DNA of 64,000 nucleotides from Theodoxus fluviatilis. Taxonomy: Eukaryota > Mollusca > Gastropoda > Cycloneritida > Neritidae. The DNA is taken from the NCBI GenBank assembly GCA_034096865.1, contig JAWQFJ010000523.1, forward strand, positions 1 through 64,000, in the 5' to 3' direction. Position numbers and translations under genes: made by a program. This document shows positions 30,101 to 64,000 of this stretch, in pieces (positions within the stretch are counted from its first letter, which is position 1; each line of letters opens with the position of its first letter). The notes under the pieces are model-generated. The model made no database searches, was not told where the DNA came from, and saw nothing but the letters and a program-made list of their open reading frames with translations.

Positions 30101-33100
30101 AATTACATGAATGAAGAGCACTTGTGTATTTGTAATGTTATGATTGATATAACAACAAATGTTCACATAATTTTGATGTTTTAAGAAAAAGATGCCTATC
30201 ATGTTGCTACACCTGTTTTTTTCCCCTCATAAATCATGTTTCTGTTTGAACCACATCAACATATTTTCTTTTCCTGCATCTTTGTTGAAGTTGGGACAAA
30301 TGTGTTGAGTGCCGTGGAATGAGTAGACGTTGAAGGATGCTCAGTAGAAGCTGAGATGGACCATGCTCAGTAGAAGCTGAGATGGACTTCTGTCTTGTTC
30401 TCCAGGCATCCCAGGCCAGCAGATTCCTTCCAGTCAGCTAGGTCAGCATGCCCAAAACACCCATGATAATGGCAATAGTGAGTATCCACTGTACTTCAGT
30501 ACTCATGTATGGTCTTCTTTGTCACTGGATGTACTGTGCTGTAGTGAGTATCCACCGTACCTCAGTACTCATGTATGGTCTTCTTTGTCACTGGATGTAC
30601 TGTGCTGTAGTGAGTATCCACCGTACCTCAGTACTCATGTATGGTCTTCTTTCTCATTGAATGTACTGTGCTGTAGTGAGTATCCACCGTACCTCAGTAC
30701 TCATGTATGGTCTTCTTTCTCATTGAATGTACTGTGCTGTAGTAAGTATCCACTGTACCTCAGTACTCATGTATGGTCTTCTTTCTCATTGAATGTACTG
30801 TGCTGTAGTGAGTATCCACCGTACCTCAGTACTCATGTATGGTCTTCTCTCTCATTGAATGTACGGTGCTGTAGTGAGTATCCACCGTACCTCAGTACTC
30901 ATGTATGGTCTTCTTTCTCATTGGATGTACTGTTCTGTAGTGAGTATCCACCGTACCTCAGTACTCATGTATGGTCTTCTTTCTCATTGGATGTACTGTG
31001 CTGTAGTAAGTATCCACTGTACCTCAGTACTCATGTATGGTCTTCTTTCTCATTGAATGTACTGTGCTGTAGTGAGTATCCACCGTACCTCAGTACTCAT
31101 GTATGGTCTTCTTTCTCATTGAATGTACTGTGCTGTAGTGAGTATCCACCGTACCTCAGTACTCATGTATGGTCTTCTTTCTCATTGAATGTACTGTGCT
31201 GTAGTGAGTATCCACTGTACTTCAGTACTCATGTATGGTCTTCTTTCTCATTGAATGTACTGTGCTGTAGTGAGTATCCACCGTACCTCAGTACTCATGT
31301 ATGGTCTTCTTTCTCATTGAATGTACTGTGCTGTAGTGAGTATCCACCGTACCTCAGTACTCATGTATGGTCTTCTTTCTCATTGGATGTACTGTTCTGT
31401 AGTGAGTATCCACCGTACCTCAGTACTCATGTATGGTCTTCTTTCTCATTGAATGTACTGTGCTGTAGTGAGTATCCACTGTACCTCAGTACTCATGTAT
31501 GGTCTTCTTTCTCATTGAATGTACTGTGCTGTAGTGAGTATCCACCGTACCTCAGTACTCATGTATGGTCATCTTTCTCATTGAATGCACTGTGCTGTAG
31601 TGAGTATCCACCGTACCTCAGTACTCATGTATGGTCTTCTTTCTCATTGAATGTACTGTGCTGTAGTGAGTATCCACTGTACCTCAGTACTCATGTATGG
31701 TCTTCTTTCTCAACGAAGACCCCTGTGTCTCTCTTCGTGATTCATAAAGAGGCGAATAAATACAGACTTTGTGACTTGATTTGCGTTTACTCTAGACTAT
31801 TGTAATGATTTTTGTGCTTAATGGCCTTACATAGCCTACAACGGCTGACAGGCCATAAAACTCCATCCATCTTTCTCACTGGATGTGCAATGCTGTAGTG
31901 AGTACCCACTGTACCTCAGTACTGATTTATGGTCTTCTTTGTCACTGGATGTACAATGCTGTGGTGAGTACCCACTGTACCTCAGTACTGATTTATGGTC
32001 TTCTTTGTCACTGGATGTGCAATGCTGTAGTGAGTATCCACTGTACCTCAGTACTGATTTATGGTCTTCTTTGTCACTGGATGTGCAATGCTGTGGTGAG
32101 TACCCACTGTACCTCAGTACTGATTTATGGTCTTCCTTGTCACTAGATGTACAATGCTGTAGTGTGTATCCATTGTATCTCAGTAGTGCCCTTGTGTCTT
32201 CTTTTCCCTGTGAATGCAGAACGAAATAAATAGTGTCCACTGTACTATATGAAACAACCAACTCTAAGTTAAGTTCTTGATCTCATTAGAATGAAGACAA
32301 GTTATAATGGAGACAATAGGAGACAAGATGAATAAGACTAAGAGGTGCACATTTTTTTAAATACTGAAATGTCATTGTCAGGCACAAGATAAAAAAGCAT
32401 GTACTTACAGGGGTGGGGGGGTGGGGAGTAAAAGTGCCCTGTCTGTGATTGGGTTGTACATTGCAGTCCTGAGTATCCACTGTATCTTAGTACCCCTCTG
32501 CATCCTTTGCATTTGGATGTACAATGCAGTAGTGAATATGTGATTGACCAAAACACTGCTTGGAATAGCAGTGGTGAATCCATTTCCATATATATATGTT
32601 CACTTGTCTATTAGCACTTTGAAAATATTTCTTCAAAACTTGTAATAGTTGACACTTGATCTATTTTATCATAACTGTGGAGTTATATTTTGTTCTTCAT
32701 TGATGATGATAAAATGCTTGAAACATCATTGTGACATTCTAGTCTGTAAAGTTCTATTTTGTGTGATGGGTTGAATGTTTCCCTCTTGCAGCGGTGATTC
32801 TCACGGCAGTGTTGTGTGTTGGCGGAGTGCTGGCCCTCATGTTGCTCATATTCTTCTACATCTTCCAGCGAAAGTAAGTGAGCCATGTTTCTATTTATTT
32901 GATGTGTTCACATTTACATCTACTGTGGCCAGTTCAGTGTACTGTTTTAACACATTTTCTTATATATATTATTAAAATGTTTTTATCTGATCTTCATAAG
33001 CATATATATTAATATTGTCATAGTGATCACAGCAATTCTTTAAATAATTTGTATGAGTTGTTAAGGCAATTATTGTTTCTTCTTATTTAAATCAGCACAG

Positions 33101-42900: not shown

Positions 42901-52412
<9,512 letters not shown>

Positions 52413-53424: not shown

Positions 53425-53475
53425 TCGGTCCCCCTGTGGGTTCGGGGTAAGAATTGACCCACCGCGTCTCCCTAC
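53425..53475 (+). repeat. Dispersed repeat, 5' half split by LINE insertion
   Basis: GGTAAGAATTGACCCACCGC and onward match the intact copy at 23535. The sequence breaks at GTCTCCCTAC (53466-53475), which recurs at 55022-55031 where the element continues. Confidence 0.75.
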
Positions 53476-55021
53476 CCAGAGGTAGATACCGATGTCCCTC
53501 CAGCAACCAACAATTACGACGACCACCCCATCCTTCGTGTAGAAGTGAAAGCAGCAATGAAATCGCTGAAGAAGGGGAAGTCAGAAGGAATGGACAACAT
53601 CCCAGGAGAGCTGGTACAGGCAGGGGGGGAAGAGATGATCAGTGCTTTACTGACCATCATCACCCTCCCAAAGAAAGGCAACTTACAGCTATGCCAGAAC
53701 TACAGAACTATCAGCCTCATCAGCCACCCGAGCAAAGTCATGGTGATCATCTTACTGAACAGATTGAAGCCACAAGCAGAGAAGATCATCGCTGAAGAAC
53801 AGGCAGGCTTCAGACAAGGGCGCAGTACAACGGAGCAGATCTTCAACCTCAGGATACTGTGCGAGAGGTACCTACAACACCAACAGGACCTCTACCACGT
53901 CTTCGTGGACTTTAAGAAGGCTTTCGACAGGGTATGGCATGCAGCACGGTGGGCTACCATGAGGCTGTACAACATCAACGCCAACCTGATCAGAGTCATA
54001 GAACACCTGTATGACAATGCCACAAGTGCCGTATACTTCAACAGCAGCATTGGGGACTGGTTCAGAACCACAGTCGGAGTGAGACAAGGCTGTTTGCTCT
54101 CTCTCTCACCCTCTTTAACATCTTCCTGGAAAGAATAATGACGCCCTAAAAGACCACGAGGGAACAGTCAACATTGGCGGCAGAACAATCACAAACTTAC
54201 GTTTTGCTGACGACATAGATGGCCTGGCCAGAAGTGAAAAGGAGCTGGAGAACTTAGTGGAGCGCCTAGACACAACCTCCACAAATTTTGGCATGCAGAT
54301 CAGTGCAGAGAAGACCAAATTAACTGATGACCAACAACACCAACGGCATCAGCACTGACATCAAGGTCTGTGGCGAGAAACTGGAAACCGTCAACAACTT
54401 CAAATACCTGGGAGCAATTGTCACAGATCCAGGATCCAAACCTGAAATACTCGCCAGAATTGCTCAGACCATAGCAGCACTCACAAAACTCAAGACCATC
54501 TGGAAGGACAGGAACATAGCCCTCAGCTCAAAGATCAGACTGATGCGCGCCCTGGTTATGTCCATATTTTTGTATGCCTGTGAGTCATGGACACTAACAG
54601 CGGACTTGGAGAGAAGGATACAGGCCATGGAAATGAGATGCTTTCGACGACTTCTCGGCATCTCCTACAAGGACCGCATCACACAACGAGGAAGTCCGAA
54701 ACAGAATCAGGCAAGCCCCATGAAGAACTACTGACCATGCACTGTGAAAAGACGCAAACTAAAGTGGTATGGGCACGTCTCACGATCGTCAGGGCTTGCC
54801 AAGACTGTACAAGGCATAATAAAAGGAGGGAGGAGGAGAGGCAGACAAAGGAAAAGATGGGAGGACAATGTCTCAGAGTGGACAGGGATGAGGCTCAGCG
54901 AAGCCTTGAGACAGTCCGAGAGGCGAGAGGAATGGAGAGAACTGGTTGCCAGATCATCTGTGGTGCCCCAACGGTCGTCCAGACTACGGGACAAGTGAAG
55001 TGAAGTGAAGTGAAGTGAAGT
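53476..55021 (+). mobile_element. Truncated non-LTR retrotransposon with degenerate reverse transcriptase
   Basis: LINE fragment inserted in a dispersed repeat and flanked by a 10-bp target duplication GTCTCCCTAC (53466-53475 and 55022-55031). It begins within the reverse transcriptase: GKSEGMDNIPGELVQAGGEE, then FVDFKKAFDRV (catalytic Asp, motif A), GVRQGC, FADDIDGLA (motif C, about 54198-54230), then AEKTK and FKYLGAIVTD. The C-terminal part has RRKLKWYGHV and GGRRRGRQRKRWEDN near 54744-54880. The frame is broken several times (around 54105, 54138 and 54320), so it is dead. It ends in (GTGAA)n, a LINE-type tail. 5' truncated; clade not assigned. Confidence 0.9.
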
Positions 55022-55389: not shown

Positions 55390-55911
55390 ATGGCGACCTT
55401 TGGCAGAGCATTAGCGAGGACCTGCAGAAACATCCTTAGCAGTCATGCAACTACGCCACAATACGCCGTTTTGAGCATGCCGGTGCGATGGATGTCATCA
55501 GGTACGATGTAGTCTTCTGCGCACTTTACCTGTCGGGCGATTTATTCGTGTTTGTACGCGACCTTTAAGTGACCCATCGTCTGCTCTGCGTCCCAGAAAC
55601 TGACCATGATGGTGACCTCCACAGGACTAGCTCTAGTCTAGTGCTTCAGTTGTTGTCGTGCGTGGGTCACTCGAACTGACCCTGCACTTCTTGAATTTGT
55701 CTCCAAGGGGGCACAAATATATTGTGCTTTTTTACGTGGCATTAAAAACCTAATGCTTCTTGACTACACTGTTGTTACAACTATACAAGTGTTGAAAAGT
55801 ACATACTCATTGCCAGACGCCACTGACAAGGGCAACATTGAACACACGTTCACCACTTATCAAGAACCACTTATTTAAGCTTTCTCTGTCATACATCCCC
55901 CCCCCCCCCCC

Positions 55912-57578: not shown

Positions 57579-60500
57579 TGTTGTGTGTGTGTTTTTCCAA
57601 CAGGCAAAAAAAGTGTAGAATCAGCAGCACAACTAAGTGTTGATCTGGTGTCCAGAAACAAACAAAAATAAATGTTGTAGTCTTATGAACATTCATACAT
57701 ATAAACAGAAACATAGTGTGATTTTTTTAAATTAAAAAAAGTTTTATGAAAAGGTTTCCCCCCAAAATGTCCACCCAAATGTACAAGAATCAAAACTACT
57801 TAATACCAAGTAATACAACTTTTCTTCTCAACTGCAGACAAGCAACAAAGCAGATACTTCCAATTCAAAGCTTTGGCATGTACACCCACACTGGATAGTC
57901 TTACAAAATCTACAAACTGGACCAATACAGGAATATAACAAAACAAAACTACTGCTAAAGTATACAAATAAAATGTGTTAATCCATTTGTGCAACTCATG
58001 CCTAATGTGTATCAATTTTTTCTGCTACAGTGAAGGTGGGAAGAAATGGAATGAAAGTGACACTGATGCATGGGTTTGTTGCAGGGCAGTATGAGTACAT
58101 TGTGGTGGACAAACGAGGTGAGAAGAAGACTGTGGGCGTTATCCAGCTGAACCGTCCCAAGGCCCTGAACGCCCTCTGTGATGGACTGATGAACGAGGTG
58201 GGCGCAGCCCTGAGGGACTTTGAAGCAGACAAGGACGTTGGCTGCATCGTCTTGACAGGCAGCGACAGAGCCTTTGCTGGTACCTTGTCCATGTCTTAGA
58301 GTGTGCAGAGTTTCCTTGGTAGTGGGCGGAGTGACAGGGTTAATCCTGGTTATCAAGAATGAAGGTCTTCACATGTCTTGCCTTTCATTCCTGTGTTGCA
58401 CATTAGCAACAGTTTATTTTTATGTGAGTGGCAGCCCCTGCTGCCATGAAATTGTCCTCATGGGATTCCTCCATGATGCACAGAATCTGCTTCTACCAGT
58501 GACACAAGATGTGTGCACTGCAGTGTTGTGTATTTGCTGGTATTGACTTTTTTTTCAACAATGATTAGAACTGGGTACTTATTGAGGCAGGGGAGGTTCA
58601 ATGTGATGCCTTCGATTTTGTTTGGTCTGTGAGCCAGTATTGAGTTGGCATAAGCCTCATGAAGTGGGTATGCGTTTATGTGTTGCATACTTCTGTTAAG
58701 CTTGTCTGTGGATGCCAGTGAAACATTGATCAAGTGATCAAGTAGTCTTTTGATTGGGGGTTAAGTTGTAAAGCAGTTTCAGATCCATACAAGAGCAAGA
58801 AATCGGTCTTTGTGTAAAACCTATACTTGGTTGATACCTATCACAGAGGCCCACTGAGGTGTATGTGTGTGTGAGTGTGTGTGTGTGTGTGTGTGAGTGA
58901 ATTATGTGCCAGTTGGCTGAAATGTGCTTTTTATGGGCCTTACACCTTGCCATGTACAGAATGTTTGTTTGCGAGGACATGTATCTGAGAATTTAATAAA
59001 TTTAAAGTATGTATTTTATAAGTCATATGTATAAGCTAATTTTTTTAGGTGTGAATGTGTTGGAGTTTGTTAGCAAAGTGAAGTCAAATGCAGAAGAAGA
59101 AAAAAAGAAGTTAAATTATCAATGTTTTGCCTTTGAATTTATTGGATCTTGTGTGTCATTTTGATTAATTTATGCTTCAGTAGTTTGTAACAATTGTGTT
59201 AATACAATTATTTTGCAAGTTTAAGATTACTGAAAAATGTTAAAGAAAAACAGGAACTAACTGAACTTTGCTGAGGATTGCATTTATGTTTTAACTTTTA
59301 TTATTTGATTTTTCATATGCTGTCAGTGAAGACATCTCAAGGATGAGAAAAAGCCCCGTAATGCTAAGGCCAAGGATGAGAAAAAGCCCCGTAATGCTAA
59401 GGCCAAGGATGAGAAAAAGTCCCGTAATGCTAAGGCCAAGGATGAGAAAAAGCCCCGTAATGCTAAGGCCAAGGATGAGAAAAAGCCCCGTAATGCTAAG
59501 GCCAAGGATGAGAAAAAGCCCCGTAATGCTAAGGCCAAGGATGAGAAAAAGCCCCGTAATGCTAAGGCCAAGGATGAGAAAAAGCCCCGTAATGCTAAGG
59601 CCAAGGATGAGAAAAAGCCCCGTAATGCTAAGGCCAAGGATGAGAAAAAGCCCCGTAATGCTAAGGCCAAGGATGAGAAAAAGCCCCGTAATGCTAAGGC
59701 CAAGGATGAGAAAAAGCCCCGTAATGCTAAGGCCAAGGATGAGAAAAAGCCCCGTAATGCTAAGGCCAAGGATGAGAAAAAGCCCCGTAATGCTAAGGCC
59801 AAGGATGAGAAAAAGCCCCGTAATGCTACAGTACACAGTAATTTATTGCGCCAAGTGACATCATTTAAAAAACGAGCACGAGGAAAACTAAGTGATGAAG
59901 GCTAAAAGAAACAAAACAAAAAGCCAAACACACGCATCGCTTACACACCCTAACACGCCGTTTATGCAAAAAACATGGACATTTCCTGATGTACCTCACT
60001 CACGACACACACGCAGCTGCACACAGACAAGAGATAAGACTACACCTGAAACCAAAAGGGTTAACTGGTAAATGGGGCAATATACAATGAACAGTTAAAG
60101 TTACTATTTAAGAACTGTTGACAAAAGAGGAACAAACTAAGATGATACACCCACCCACCCACGCCCCTTTTAAGTGGCAATAAATAATACATATGAACAG
60201 AGACAAGACCACTAAGACGTACCCCCCCACCACCCCACCCCCATCCCACCCCCCGTCACCACACAAAAGAATACAATAGAACAATACAAAAACAACCCTG
60301 CGCAAGTGAAAGCTACAAGAAGACCAACCCTTCCCCACCCCCACCCCCTCCCCCACCCCTCCCCCCACCCCCAACCACACTCAGTAGCAGTCCATATAAC
60401 CCAGAGGAAGCACAAAAGAGAAAGTGGCACTGTCATAGATGTGGAGAAGTGTGTGCGCACCGCCGACAGGATCAGCGGCGGCAAAGCTGCCTGGGGAGGT

Positions 60501-63500
60501 TCTGGACAGCGTTGAGCTCCGTCACCGCCGTGGGGAAGAACGAGTTCTGAAAACGGCATGTGCGCGTTTTGAGGGACCTGAAACGACGGCCAGAGGGAAG
60601 GAGCTGGAAGAGGGAACAAGCAGGGTGGGAGGGGTCCGCCACAATCTTACGGGACTTGCGCACTATGCGCTGGGCGTAGATAGAGGCTAGGGAGGGCAGA
60701 TCAAGGCCAAGGATTAGAAAAAGTCCCGTAATGCTAAGGCCGAGGATTAGAAAAAGCCCCGTAATGCTAAGGCCAAGGATGAGAAAAAGCCCCGTAATGC
60801 TAAGGCCAAGGATGAGAAAAAGCCCCGTAATGCTAAGGCCAAGGATGAGAAAAAGTCCCGTAATGCTAAGGCCAAGGATGAGAAAAAGCCCCGTAATGCT
60901 AGGGCCAAGGATGAGAAAAAGCCCCGTAATGCTAAGGCCAAGGATGAGAAAAAGCCCCGTAATGCTAAGGCCAAGGATGAGAAAAAGTCCCGTAATGCTA
61001 AGGCCAAGGATGAGAAAAAGCCCCGTAATGCTAGGGCCAAGGATGAGAAAAAGCCCCGTAATGCTAAGGCCAAGGATGAGAAAAAGCCCCGTAATGCTAA
61101 GGCCAAGGATTAGAAAAAGCCCCGTAATGCTAGGGCCAAGGATGAGAAAAAGCCCCGTAATGCTAAGGCCAAGGATGAGAAAAAGCCCCGTAATGCTAGG
61201 GCCAAGGATTAGAAAAAGCCCCGTAATGCTAAGGCCAAGGATGAGAAAAAGCCCCGTAATGCTAAGGCCAAGGATGAGAAAAAGTCCCGTAATGCTAAGG
61301 CCAAGGATGAGAAAAAGCCCCGTAATGCTAAGGCCAAGGATGAGAAAAAGCCCCGTAATGCTAAGGCCAAGGATGAGAAAAAGCCCCGTAATGCTAAGGC
61401 CAAGGATGAGAAAAAGCCCCGTAATGCTAAGGCCAAGGATGAGAAAAAGCCCCGTAATGCTAAGGCCAAGGATGAGAAAAAGCCCCGTAATGCTAAGGCC
61501 AAGGATGAGAAAAAGCCCCGTAATGCTAAGGCCAAGGATGAGAAAAAGCCCCGTAATGCTAAGGCCAAGGATGAGAAAAAGCCCCGTAATGCTAAGGCCA
61601 AGGATGAGAAAAAGCCCCGTAATGCTAAGGCCCCCCAAAAAGGTGTGGTTACAGTAACCCGACCAACCTTATTTTTTCCTGCAGACCCTAAACTCTTGTG
61701 TGTTTTTTAAATAATGGAAAATAAAATTTTAAAATTTACTGTTAACAAACTGTGTGCCATCCATCTTCCCTGCCCAATGAGCACTTGGAAAATCCACTAT
61801 TTACATTTTTTAAAAGTGTGTTCAGTGAAAGAAAAAACTTGATTTATGTTCAATCTGGCCTCTTCTAAAGCAATAAAAAAAAATAGTTCAGGCCAACTTA
61901 CCAACTCTTTTTCTTATACTGTGTTACCATAACCACAACCCTTTTTTCCCCCCCAAATCATCATAGCAAAGCTCTGGCATCCAAGTCACTTGTTTCAAGG
62001 CCGCAATTTGGAATGGTCATGATGTGGTCTTGTTGCAGCCGGGGCGGACATCAAGGAGATGCAGGGGAAGAGCTTTTCCCAGGTGTTTGGTGGCAGTTTT
62101 CTCAGTCACTGGACCTATGTTAGTGATTGTACCAAACCTGTCATCGCTGCGGTCAATGGGTTTGCTGTAGGTACTCCAGTAGCACGGCTCCTCTGACTGA
62201 CCAAACCTGGCAATGAGTGGTGAGGGGAAACTAATGTCTTGGTCTTGTGTAATGGAAGTAGAAAGTTTTGATAGTACACTGATACAGTGCTGTGTACTTC
62301 AGTGTTAGTAATATGGCAGAAAATGGGCTTGGAAAAGATGATCTTCCAGAATTGAGAGGGGCTCAAACATTTTCATCTCTTTTATGTTCAATAAGTTCAT
62401 TTGTTTCTGTTTTGGTCTTTGCTGTTATTCAAATGAAAAATGGAAAATCTTTGGGCAATATAATGGAATTGCTTGATTGCTAGATAATAAAGTGCATCAT
62501 TTTCAGGGCTTATGGTGCTGTTGTTTAGAAGTTTGTAGAAATGTAAAATGAGCATTTTCATGTTCATCATTAGCAAAAACCTGCTGCAGGGTTGCACACT
62601 TTTGCTCTGCTCATTGCTGGTGATAGCGTCTTCCTGCTGCCTGGTGAACTTTCCTCGAGGTGAAAAATTCAGTCTGGAGTCACAGACAAAAAGTCTTGCA
62701 GGAAGGATTAACTTTCAAGGAAGTATTTGATGACAATACACCAATTCTTTTGTTACACTTACAGGAAAACTTTCCTCTCTTTTCAAACATTCATATTAAC
62801 TCAAGTGGAGACTAAGAAACCTTTGAAGATATTTGCTTGTAAATGGCAGCTCGTGGTGATGTCTGAAGGATTTTGACCCTTGTGTAATGTGTCGCTAATT
62901 TTCCTTATTTTTTTCATTCTGTCTTCTCTTTCAAAGGGTCTTACTTGAAAAATTAAATTCTTTACACGAGGAACTGGGTAGCAGTAGATTTTGAGCCCTG
63001 CTCAATTGTTCTTCTGCATTGAGGCTTGCACTTATTGCTTTGGCAGGTTTGGTTGGCAGTCCTGCTTTGTGTGTGTGATCCTTTGTGTTCGCATGTACAT
63101 GCGCCTGTGATTTACAAATGATATCATGAGAGCTAATCAATGCTTTGATAAGTACAGTGCAGAGTCATTTTGTTGCAGTTGGTGCTGTTATTCCAGACTT
63201 GCTCCGCAAGTCTTTCTACGATGTGTTCAGTTCTAACTTTCCCCAATTCTGGGATGAAGCGGCCCGGCTGCAGACCCCAACCATAGCTGCAGTGAATGGC
63301 TATGCTGTAGGTCCTTTTGTCAAGCCTCTTCCCAAGAGATAAGATGAGCTGCAGTCAAGGACTGCTGGCTGTTTTGTCAATACATGCACTACACCAAGAG
63401 TATGCCACACACCCTTTTATACAGTTCGTAAACTAACCCCTTTGAGTACTGGTGACAGACTCACAAGGTTGAGAAGATCACATGCATTCTTGGAATTTGT

Positions 63501-64000
63501 TGTGTTATTCATTGTGGAATACATTGTGCTGACAGCTTTGCAGTAACAGTATAGTGAATCCTCACTGTAATGTGTAGAGCGTGAAAGGAGCATTTATGTT
63601 AGGAGACTTTATAAGACAAGTGGGTTTAATACTCTCAGATCTGCACATTACAGTCAGTAATTTTTTTCCAGAGTAAAGGATTTGATAATTTGCCTTTGCT
63701 TGTCCAATTTCTAACAAAGAAATTCCAATATTGTAAACCCTATTGCACAGTTTAGAGATTAGAGACATGATGTAACTTTAGAAGGCTATTTCAGTTGAAG
63801 TACATTTAATTGCTTGACCTTTTTTAGGTTAAGAAGTTAAGCAAGGGATGAATGTTATGAGAGTTGGATAACTGTTGCCTCTGCGAATGAACCACTGTTT
63901 TCTTGCAGTTGGGTGGGGGCTGTGAGCTTGCCATGATGTGTGACATCATCTACGCTGGAGAGAAGGCACAGTTCGGCCAGCCTGAAATCACGCTGGGCAC
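55390..64000 (+). CDS. ECHS1: ECHS1, mitochondrial short-chain enoyl-CoA hydratase, 3' cut by window end
   Basis: Hydrates 2-enoyl-CoA in mitochondrial beta-oxidation and valine breakdown; crotonase fold. Exons: 55390-55501 (start, Arg-rich mitochondrial presequence [20 protein letters not shown]), 58085-58279 ([41 protein letters not shown]), alternative third exons 62039-62166 or 63179-63306, and 63909 to beyond the window ([30 protein letters not shown]). The last exon holds both family catalytic glutamates (in GGGCEL and QPEI). Splicing exon 2 to 3a gives [11 protein letters not shown] and the exon 3 to 4 join gives NGFALGGGCEL, as in vertebrate ECHS1. The exon 3 donors are GCT|GTAGGT, chosen because this restores the family sequence. 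Intron 2 carries the large 33-bp arrays and a LINE. Divergently oriented to WDR45B, start codons about 3 kb apart. Confidence 0.95.
56152..56375. mobile_element. piggyBac-like MITE
   Basis: A 224-bp element flanked by TTAA on both sides (56148-56151 and 56376-56379). Its ends are CCCATTATGACC and, inverted, CCCATTAAGACC, one mismatch in 12. CCC...GGG termini with TTAA target duplication are the signature of piggyBac transposons. Inside, ACCAGATGCTACACGC and ACCGGATGCTACGCAG form a subterminal direct repeat. There is no transposase frame, so it is non-autonomous. Confidence 0.78.
56564..56651. repeat. (AC)n microsatellite
   Basis: About 44 uninterrupted AC units in ECHS1 intron 1. Confidence 0.97.
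57522..57577. repeat. (TG)n microsatellite
   Basis: About 27 TG units in ECHS1 intron 1. Confidence 0.97.
59335..59828. repeat. 33-bp minisatellite, block 1
   Basis: Fifteen nearly identical units containing AAGGATGAGAAAAAGCCCCG and TAATGCTAAGGCC, in ECHS1 intron 2. As 33 is a multiple of three and the unit has no stops, long frames open on both strands; these are not genes. Confidence 0.97.
59829..60702 (-). mobile_element. LINE 3' end inserted in the 33-bp array
   Basis: On the minus strand it encodes the C-terminus of a LINE ORF2: [20 protein letters not shown], then [20 protein letters not shown], ending in a stop at 60472. A 3' untranslated part with C-rich tracts follows and ends near CAGTAATTTATTG. 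The 33-bp array stops in mid-unit at its 3' end and resumes in register at its 5' end, so the LINE landed inside an existing array with at most a 1-base duplication. 5' truncated. Confidence 0.85.
60703..61632. repeat. 33-bp minisatellite, block 2
   Basis: About 28 units of the same 33-bp repeat as block 1. Variants AAGGATTAG, AGTCCCG and GCTAGGGCC recur in several units, indicating local unit duplications. The GATTAG variant puts a stop in the Lys-rich forward frame, so that frame is not maintained. Confidence 0.97.
61633..62038. other. End of ECHS1 intron 2
   Basis: AT-rich intron sequence after the array; nothing further recognised apart from the acceptor of exon 3a. Confidence 0.7.
62039..62166 (+). 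other. ECHS1: ECHS1 alternative exon 3a
   Basis: Length 128 bases, entered at phase 1 and left at phase 0. It encodes the canonical (A)[17 protein letters not shown] segment and ends [11 protein letters not shown]. Preceded by CTTGTTGCAG. It carries the Gly-Ala-Asp oxyanion-loop region expected of an active hydratase. Confidence 0.93.
62167..63178. other. Spacer between ECHS1 exons 3a and 3b
   Basis: About 1 kb of AT-rich DNA without repeats or coding signs. It is ordinary intron sequence between the alternative exons. Confidence 0.75.
63179..63306 (+). other. ECHS1: ECHS1 alternative exon 3b
   Basis: Length 128 bases, the same phases as 3a, acceptor TTTTGTTGCAG, donor GCT|GTAGGT. It encodes [17 protein letters not shown] and ends [10 protein letters not shown]; it aligns to 3a without gaps. 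ADIKEM is replaced by AVIPDL, while [10 protein letters not shown] and WDEA resemble vertebrate ECHS1 better than 3a does. Including both exons would shift the frame and meet a TAG within 3b, so they should be mutually exclusive. Confidence 0.88.

Follow-up and report, generated by a model that had tools for sequence, protein, structure and literature searches.

A tandem duplicate of exon 3 in a Theodoxus fluviatilis gene for mitochondrial enoyl-CoA hydratase and its probable use as a mutually exclusive exon

Introduction

Tandem exons that are used mutually exclusively are a known arrangement (PMC9741552), and several mitochondrial enzymes have been altered by it. In nematodes and other rhodoquinone makers, the mutually exclusive exons 6a and 6e of coq-2, which encodes a polyprenyltransferase, replace the core of the enzyme, switch its choice of substrate, and are used with the change from aerobic to anaerobic conditions; both splicing and function were shown by RNA-seq and mutants (PMC7434440). 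The oyster alternative oxidases CvAOXA and CvAOXB differ by a tandem duplicate coding exon (the terminal exon 10) near active-site residues; the copies are of equal coding length, one is conserved and the other is faster changing, and both mRNAs have been measured and shift upon air exposure (PMC5589949). Exons 4a and 4b of OGDH stem from an ancient tandem duplication and give isoforms of different properties, in which calcium sensing is altered and exclusion is achieved by distant branch points (PMC7969005).

We analyzed the first 64,000 nucleotides of Theodoxus fluviatilis contig JAWQFJ010000523.1 (referred to here as the window), at the end of which lies the beginning of a gene for mitochondrial enoyl-CoA hydratase, ECHS1. 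This enzyme acts in the breakdown of fatty acids and valine and is usually regarded as one enzyme per gene. The gene in the window has two consecutive versions of exon 3, designated 3a and 3b, and our reading is that 3b is a long-selected tandem duplicate and that the gene probably uses the two versions mutually exclusively, giving rise to two mitochondrial enoyl-CoA hydratases. The pair would share with coq-2 the exclusive use of exons in an enzyme of a mitochondrial pathway, with the oyster oxidase a duplicated exon of equal coding length near the active site, one copy being conserved and the other changing faster, and with OGDH an old tandem duplication in a mitochondrial metabolic enzyme. 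It differs from the oyster pair in being internal, from OGDH in touching active-site loops rather than calcium sensing, and from both coq-2 and the oyster oxidase in being known from sequence alone.

Our searches of the open PMC literature found no mutually exclusive or tandem duplicated exons in ECHS1 or enoyl-CoA hydratase; 3b may already be a predicted isoform in public eukaryotic annotations. Literature searches that paired ECHS1 with molluscs, oysters, or hypoxia, or enoyl-CoA hydratase with anaerobic mitochondria, yielded nothing of use, and in the available text of a helminth paper (PMC8659336) the lone mention of enoyl-CoA sits in a reference. If our reading is true, a core enzyme of fat oxidation joins coq-2, the alternative oxidase, and OGDH as an enzyme retuned by tandem exons.

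Gene structure and identity of the encoded enzyme

All exons of the gene lie on the forward strand. Exon 1, delimited by its translation from the ATG and a GT donor, spans 55390 to 55501 and encodes an Arg-rich N-terminal segment that looks, by eye, like a mitochondrial presequence. The constant exon 2 (58085 to 58279) matches the ECHS1 chains of PDB and ends with the first base of a split codon. It is followed by exon 3a (62039 to 62166), the canonical version with the GADIKEM motif, by an intron of 1012 nt (62167 to 63178), and by exon 3b (63179 to 63306), the alternative GAVIPDL version. Exon 4, again constant, starts at 63909 and is cut by the window end at 64000; it carries Gly141, Glu144, and Glu164. 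An earlier note on this DNA had singled out 3a and 3b as exons of 128 bases with identical phase and identical donors, and the sequence bears this out: both are 128 nt long, have the same phase, lie between exons 2 and 4, have acceptors ending in TTGTTGCAG, and pass from GCT at the exon end to GTAGGT in the intron. A possible alternative acceptor for 3b lies 21 nt upstream, and an exon start at 63158 would be in frame, with the added stretch (63158 to 63178) open and seven more residues in loop-2 of the predicted isoform b.

The combinations 1-2-3a-4 (isoform a) and 1-2-3b-4 (isoform b) are each open for 175 codons, that is, to the window end. Joining 3a to 3b shifts the frame to an early stop, as the same note had stated, and leaving out both copies also leads to one.

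Exon 3 here comprises coding nucleotides 308 to 435, and its split codon 103 and last codon 145 correspond to rat residues 96 and 138, respectively. In human ECHS1, exon 3 contains c.310 and intron 3 contains c.414+5, so that, by the numbering in PMC7366304, human exon 3 likewise ends with codon 138. The intron position is equal in the two genes, the human end at c.414 (codon 138) matching codon 145 here, where the N terminus is seven residues longer, and 3a has the canonical sequence. As to the claim that vertebrate ECHS1 lacks such a pair, the human numbering in PMC7366304 fits a single exon at this place and contains no 3b, but numbering alone leaves room for a further exon.

The beginning of the encoded protein is, by its sequence matches, that of ECHS1. 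The best PDB matches of isoforms a and b were 9rgq (E = 4.3e-62) and 2hw5 (E = 4e-56), both mitochondrial enoyl-CoA hydratases; we take 2hw5 and 8zru to be the human enzyme. The 9RG series is rat enoyl-CoA hydratase (ECH) (PMC13126182), to which isoform a scored 212.2 and isoform b 192.6. Over the first 175 residues, which are those within the window, the Pfam ECH_1 model gave 166.3 bits for isoform a and 147.7 bits for isoform b against a cut-off of 27, and for a query of this length none of the 25 NCBIfam models listed per isoform reached its full-length cut-off. The catalytic Glu144 and Glu164, being encoded by the shared exon 4, are common to both isoforms, and each is glutamate in 80/80 prokaryotic relatives (the best 80 of at least 578). 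The oxyanion-hole residues Ala98 and Gly141 are also present in both.

Structural roles and residues of the swapped block

According to the note, the isoforms would differ at the oxyanion/substrate loop. The alignment agrees: the exchanged block equals rat residues 96 to 138 and takes in both loop-2 and the loop at 112 to 121. In the rat enzyme, loop-2 runs from Ala96 to Lys101. Binding of the CoA adenine to the main-chain oxygens of Ala96 and Ala98 makes this loop move, and the oxyanion hole, to which Ala98 and Gly141 contribute their backbone NH groups, is thereby closed (PMC13126182). Ile100 packs against the adenine, Lys101 and Lys282 hold the CoA 3'-phosphate, residues 112 to 121 form the substrate-specificity loop, and a substrate with pantetheine in place of CoA has a kcat/KM about a millionfold lower (PMC13126182). 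The paper nowhere uses the term Asp99. For the roles of alpha-3 and of the pocket residues we rely on PMC6048173, which reports that enzymes of the long-chain type, among them rat ECH, have an alpha-3 shorter by two residues; both isoforms equal rat ECH in length here, so both would be of the long-chain type. On this mapping, exon 3 forms a single cassette in which the loops for adenine sensing and for acyl specificity are joined, with the catalytic acids outside it.

The divergence reported for the GADIKEM loop is readily seen. Isoform a has the loop-2 motif A96-G-A-D99-I-K101; isoform b reads V-G-A-V-I-P, with three of the six positions changed (Ala96Val, Asp99Val, and Lys101 to Pro) and Gly97, Ala98, and Ile100 retained, and just beyond the motif Glu102 is replaced by Asp and Met103 by Leu.

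We compared these changes with the best 80 of at least 578 confirmed prokaryotic relatives, which were retrieved with isoform b as the query, so that the choice leans toward 3b-like sequences. Twelve sites of the block are common to at least 76 of the 80; all 12 are present in 3a and 10 in 3b, for which the hypergeometric P is 0.0009, given that 18 of 43 residues are kept. The two that 3b has lost are Ala96 (80/80) and Asp99 (79/80). At the other changed positions these best 80 of at least 578 are more varied: position 101 is Lys in 39 and Pro in 1, position 102 is Glu in 65, and position 103 is Met in 59 and Leu in 13. Pro117 of 3b occurs in none of the 80. Because 41/80 of these same best relatives lack Lys101, that residue is not defining for the fold, and its loss by itself would not be unusual.

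Isoform b scored 143.5 bits and isoform a 143.0 bits against EchA8 (3h81), which prompted us to consider 3b as a bacterial-like exon. This idea was dropped, as b scored above a in 18 of the 80 prokaryotic loci (the best 80 of at least 578) and did not do so in the other 62. Viral contigs gave no match.

Age of the duplication and traces of selection

The claim that the two exons encode homologous segments holds up well. Their protein sequences align without gaps and share 18/43 residues, with a BLOSUM62 score of 82 against a mean of −39.6 for shuffled sequences, and 0 of 100,000 shuffles of 3b scored as high. At the DNA level, identity at codon positions 1, 2, and 3 is 27/43, 23/43, and 14/43, pS is 0.80 (synonymous sites are saturated), pN is 0.42, and 11 of the 18 residues common to 3a and 3b are written with different codons. 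A blastn comparison of the two regions found one clear match (62142 to 62175 against 63282 to 63315, E = 2e-5), the next best being 18 bases, inverted, with an E of 0.04; the similarity reaches no further than the first bases of the donor, just past the exon, and the flanks beyond are not alike. When the 64 kb was scanned in six frames without gaps, no third copy of exon 3 scored above 30.

We also simulated neutral change, generating 20,000 copies of 3a at 65 differences by random mutation free of indels, which makes the simulation lenient. Of these copies, 3,187 stayed open, 1 kept at least 18 residues, and 0 did both. The likeness of the two proteins, the saturated synonymous sites, and the lack of any neutral copy as good among 20,000 together argue for long past selection on the 3b protein; 3b, as judged by these measures, carries the mark of long past selection as protein-coding sequence, and the duplication of exon 3 is by all appearances old.

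Each copy also keeps ECHS1 features that the other lacks, much as had been noted before. Identity to human ECHS1 is 25/43 for 3a and 20/43 for 3b, and identity to the rat enzyme is 26/43 and 19/43. Ten human residues are kept by 3a alone (A96, D99, K101, E102, M103, Q104, L117, H119, K128, and V130) and five by 3b alone (D110, S113, S114, D121, and Y137), so 3b did not arise by recent copying of 3a as it stands today. In a tree of the 43-residue block, built from 29 rows (3a, 3b, human, rat, and 25 of the 80 prokaryotic loci, themselves the best 80 of at least 578) and mostly unresolved, 3a clusters with human and rat (82/90), and 3b stands apart from 3a, its very long branch being placed next to two bacterial rows (weakly supported, 70/58). 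With its 43 columns the tree resolves too little to date the duplication, and the very long branch fits relaxed constraint as well.

Splicing and alternative explanations

Splicing of 3b and its exclusivity are what we infer from this arrangement. The frame, at the least, would restrict stable mRNAs to one copy or the other. Since 128 is not divisible by 3, transcripts with both copies or with neither would run into an early stop and probably be degraded. Steric exclusion needs a shorter intron, 1012 nt being too long, and exclusion by distant branch points needs a long stretch free of AG. AGs lie at −16, −18, −23, and −28 ahead of the 3b acceptor, and the OGDH type of mechanism accordingly finds no support; ahead of 3a there is none nearer than −41. 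The AGs at −16 to −28 would compete with the 3b acceptor and count against our reading. Pyrimidines make up 9/17 positions before both acceptors. Competing RNA pairing between introns is one known means of exclusion; here the duplex energies for the 3'-terminal 399 nt of intron 2 and the introns on either side of 3b lay within the spread of 30 shuffles for each of 3 pairs. This comparison, made over long stretches and with one partner shuffled, is a blunt one, insensitive to short elements.

The same frame shift would suit a regulatory poison exon, in which 3b is included after 3a and sends the ECHS1 mRNA to decay, its protein sequence being irrelevant. The early stop that follows from 3a plus 3b agrees with this, and the intron of 1012 nt would permit the splicing-in of both. 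A poison exon, however, needs neither the conservation of amino acids between 3a and 3b despite saturated synonymous sites nor the retention of family-conserved residues, and we consider it very unlikely. Those retained residues bear also on the idea that 3b is a relic, formerly used but no longer spliced, and drifting, the loss of its use perhaps being recent. Such drift could explain why 3b has lost Ala96 and Asp99, near invariant in the best 80 of at least 578 prokaryotic relatives, as well as its long branch in the 43-column tree and the crowding of AGs before its acceptor. Yet 3b has an intact frame, AG and GT at its ends, no indels, and 10 of the 12 sites conserved in those 80 relatives, the open frame being kept in 3,187 of 20,000 neutral copies with equal change; we regard the relic as unlikely.

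The flanks of the two exons, which have no clear similarity, might suggest that 3b came from elsewhere, as the exon 3 of a second ECHS1 gene that was misplaced in assembly or left behind in the intron, and the gene does contain long tandem repeats of a kind that can mislead assembly. These 33-bp arrays are situated upstream of 3a (59338 to 61632), none of them between 3a and 3b, and the phase and borders of 3b fit the present gene exactly; an artefact or paralogue remnant seems highly improbable to us. We return to a duplicate of exon 3 that shows the traces of long selection and is probably used in place of 3a.

Predicted properties of the two isoforms

Under mutually exclusive use, one swap would replace loop-2 (96 to 101), the alpha-3 region, and the substrate-specificity loop (112 to 121) as a block. 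Isoform a would be an ordinary hydratase, and both isoforms would share Glu144 and Glu164 from exon 4, Gly97-Ala98, and Gly141. From the residues of 3b we predict that isoform b, with Pro in place of Lys101, makes a single salt bridge to the CoA 3'-phosphate instead of two and has a changed loop-2 (Ala96Val and Asp99Val) and a changed floor of the acyl pocket (Met103Leu), and Pro117 would perhaps make its specificity loop stiffer. On this prediction isoform b would hydrate another set of enoyl thioesters or work with different kinetics, the chemistry being kept and the grip on CoA and the acyl chain altered. Mixed hexamers of isoforms a and b could also form, as rat ECH is a hexamer.

Isoform b may instead be weak or inactive as a hydratase, because Ala96 and Asp99 are near invariant in the prokaryotic relatives (the best 80 of at least 578); the loss of Asp99 is the strongest ground for doubt. 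That isoform b scores lower than isoform a on Pfam ECH_1 and on rat ECH likewise speaks against our reading. A more specific proposal is a splice switch that retunes the reading of the CoA handle: with the oxyanion loop that senses adenine and the loop for acyl specificity exchanged at once, 3b would provide an alternative mitochondrial hydratase for another thioester pool or another direction of flux, for example under low oxygen. We put this forward tentatively and think it unlikely. The low-oxygen role is a guess after coq-2 and the alternative oxidase, and the sequence gives no sign of it. If our reading is true, this natural exchange, limited to loop-2 and the specificity loop, would offer a ready-made test case for the switching of the oxyanion hole by the CoA adenine, a mechanism that was reported for rat ECH in 2026 (PMC13126182).

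Repeats and neighboring features

Intron 2 of ECHS1 contains two arrays of a 33-bp unit, at 59338 to 59828 (14.9 copies, 99% matches) and 60703 to 61632 (28.2 copies, 97%). The unit length is divisible by 3, and the arrays are crossed by long open frames on both strands. The same intron holds, at 59834 to 60452, diverged pieces (87 to 97% identity) of a dispersed repeat found at 50220 to 50620; 290 bases of it (50220 to 50509) recur, identical and inverted, at positions 1 to 290 of the window. Upstream of ECHS1 exon 1, a reverse transcriptase fragment lies on the forward strand at 53458 to 54138 (Pfam RVT_1, 75.7 bits), and the next frame, at 54324 to 54734, has no Pfam match. Rfam gave no match in the 64-kb window at gathering scores. 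On the reverse strand, a tandem array of period 77 (43869 to 44938) lies within an apparent gene for a WD-repeat PROPPIN protein, presumably WDR45B-like, for two exons of which Pfam PROPPIN matches were obtained below the cut-off; translations of the array repeat SLASASFLP peptides, as though the array had taken in the beginning of a coding exon several times. A long open frame on the forward strand at 30381 to 31805 encodes a short repeated peptide (SEYPPYLSTHVWSSFSLNVLCC) and is likely a minisatellite.
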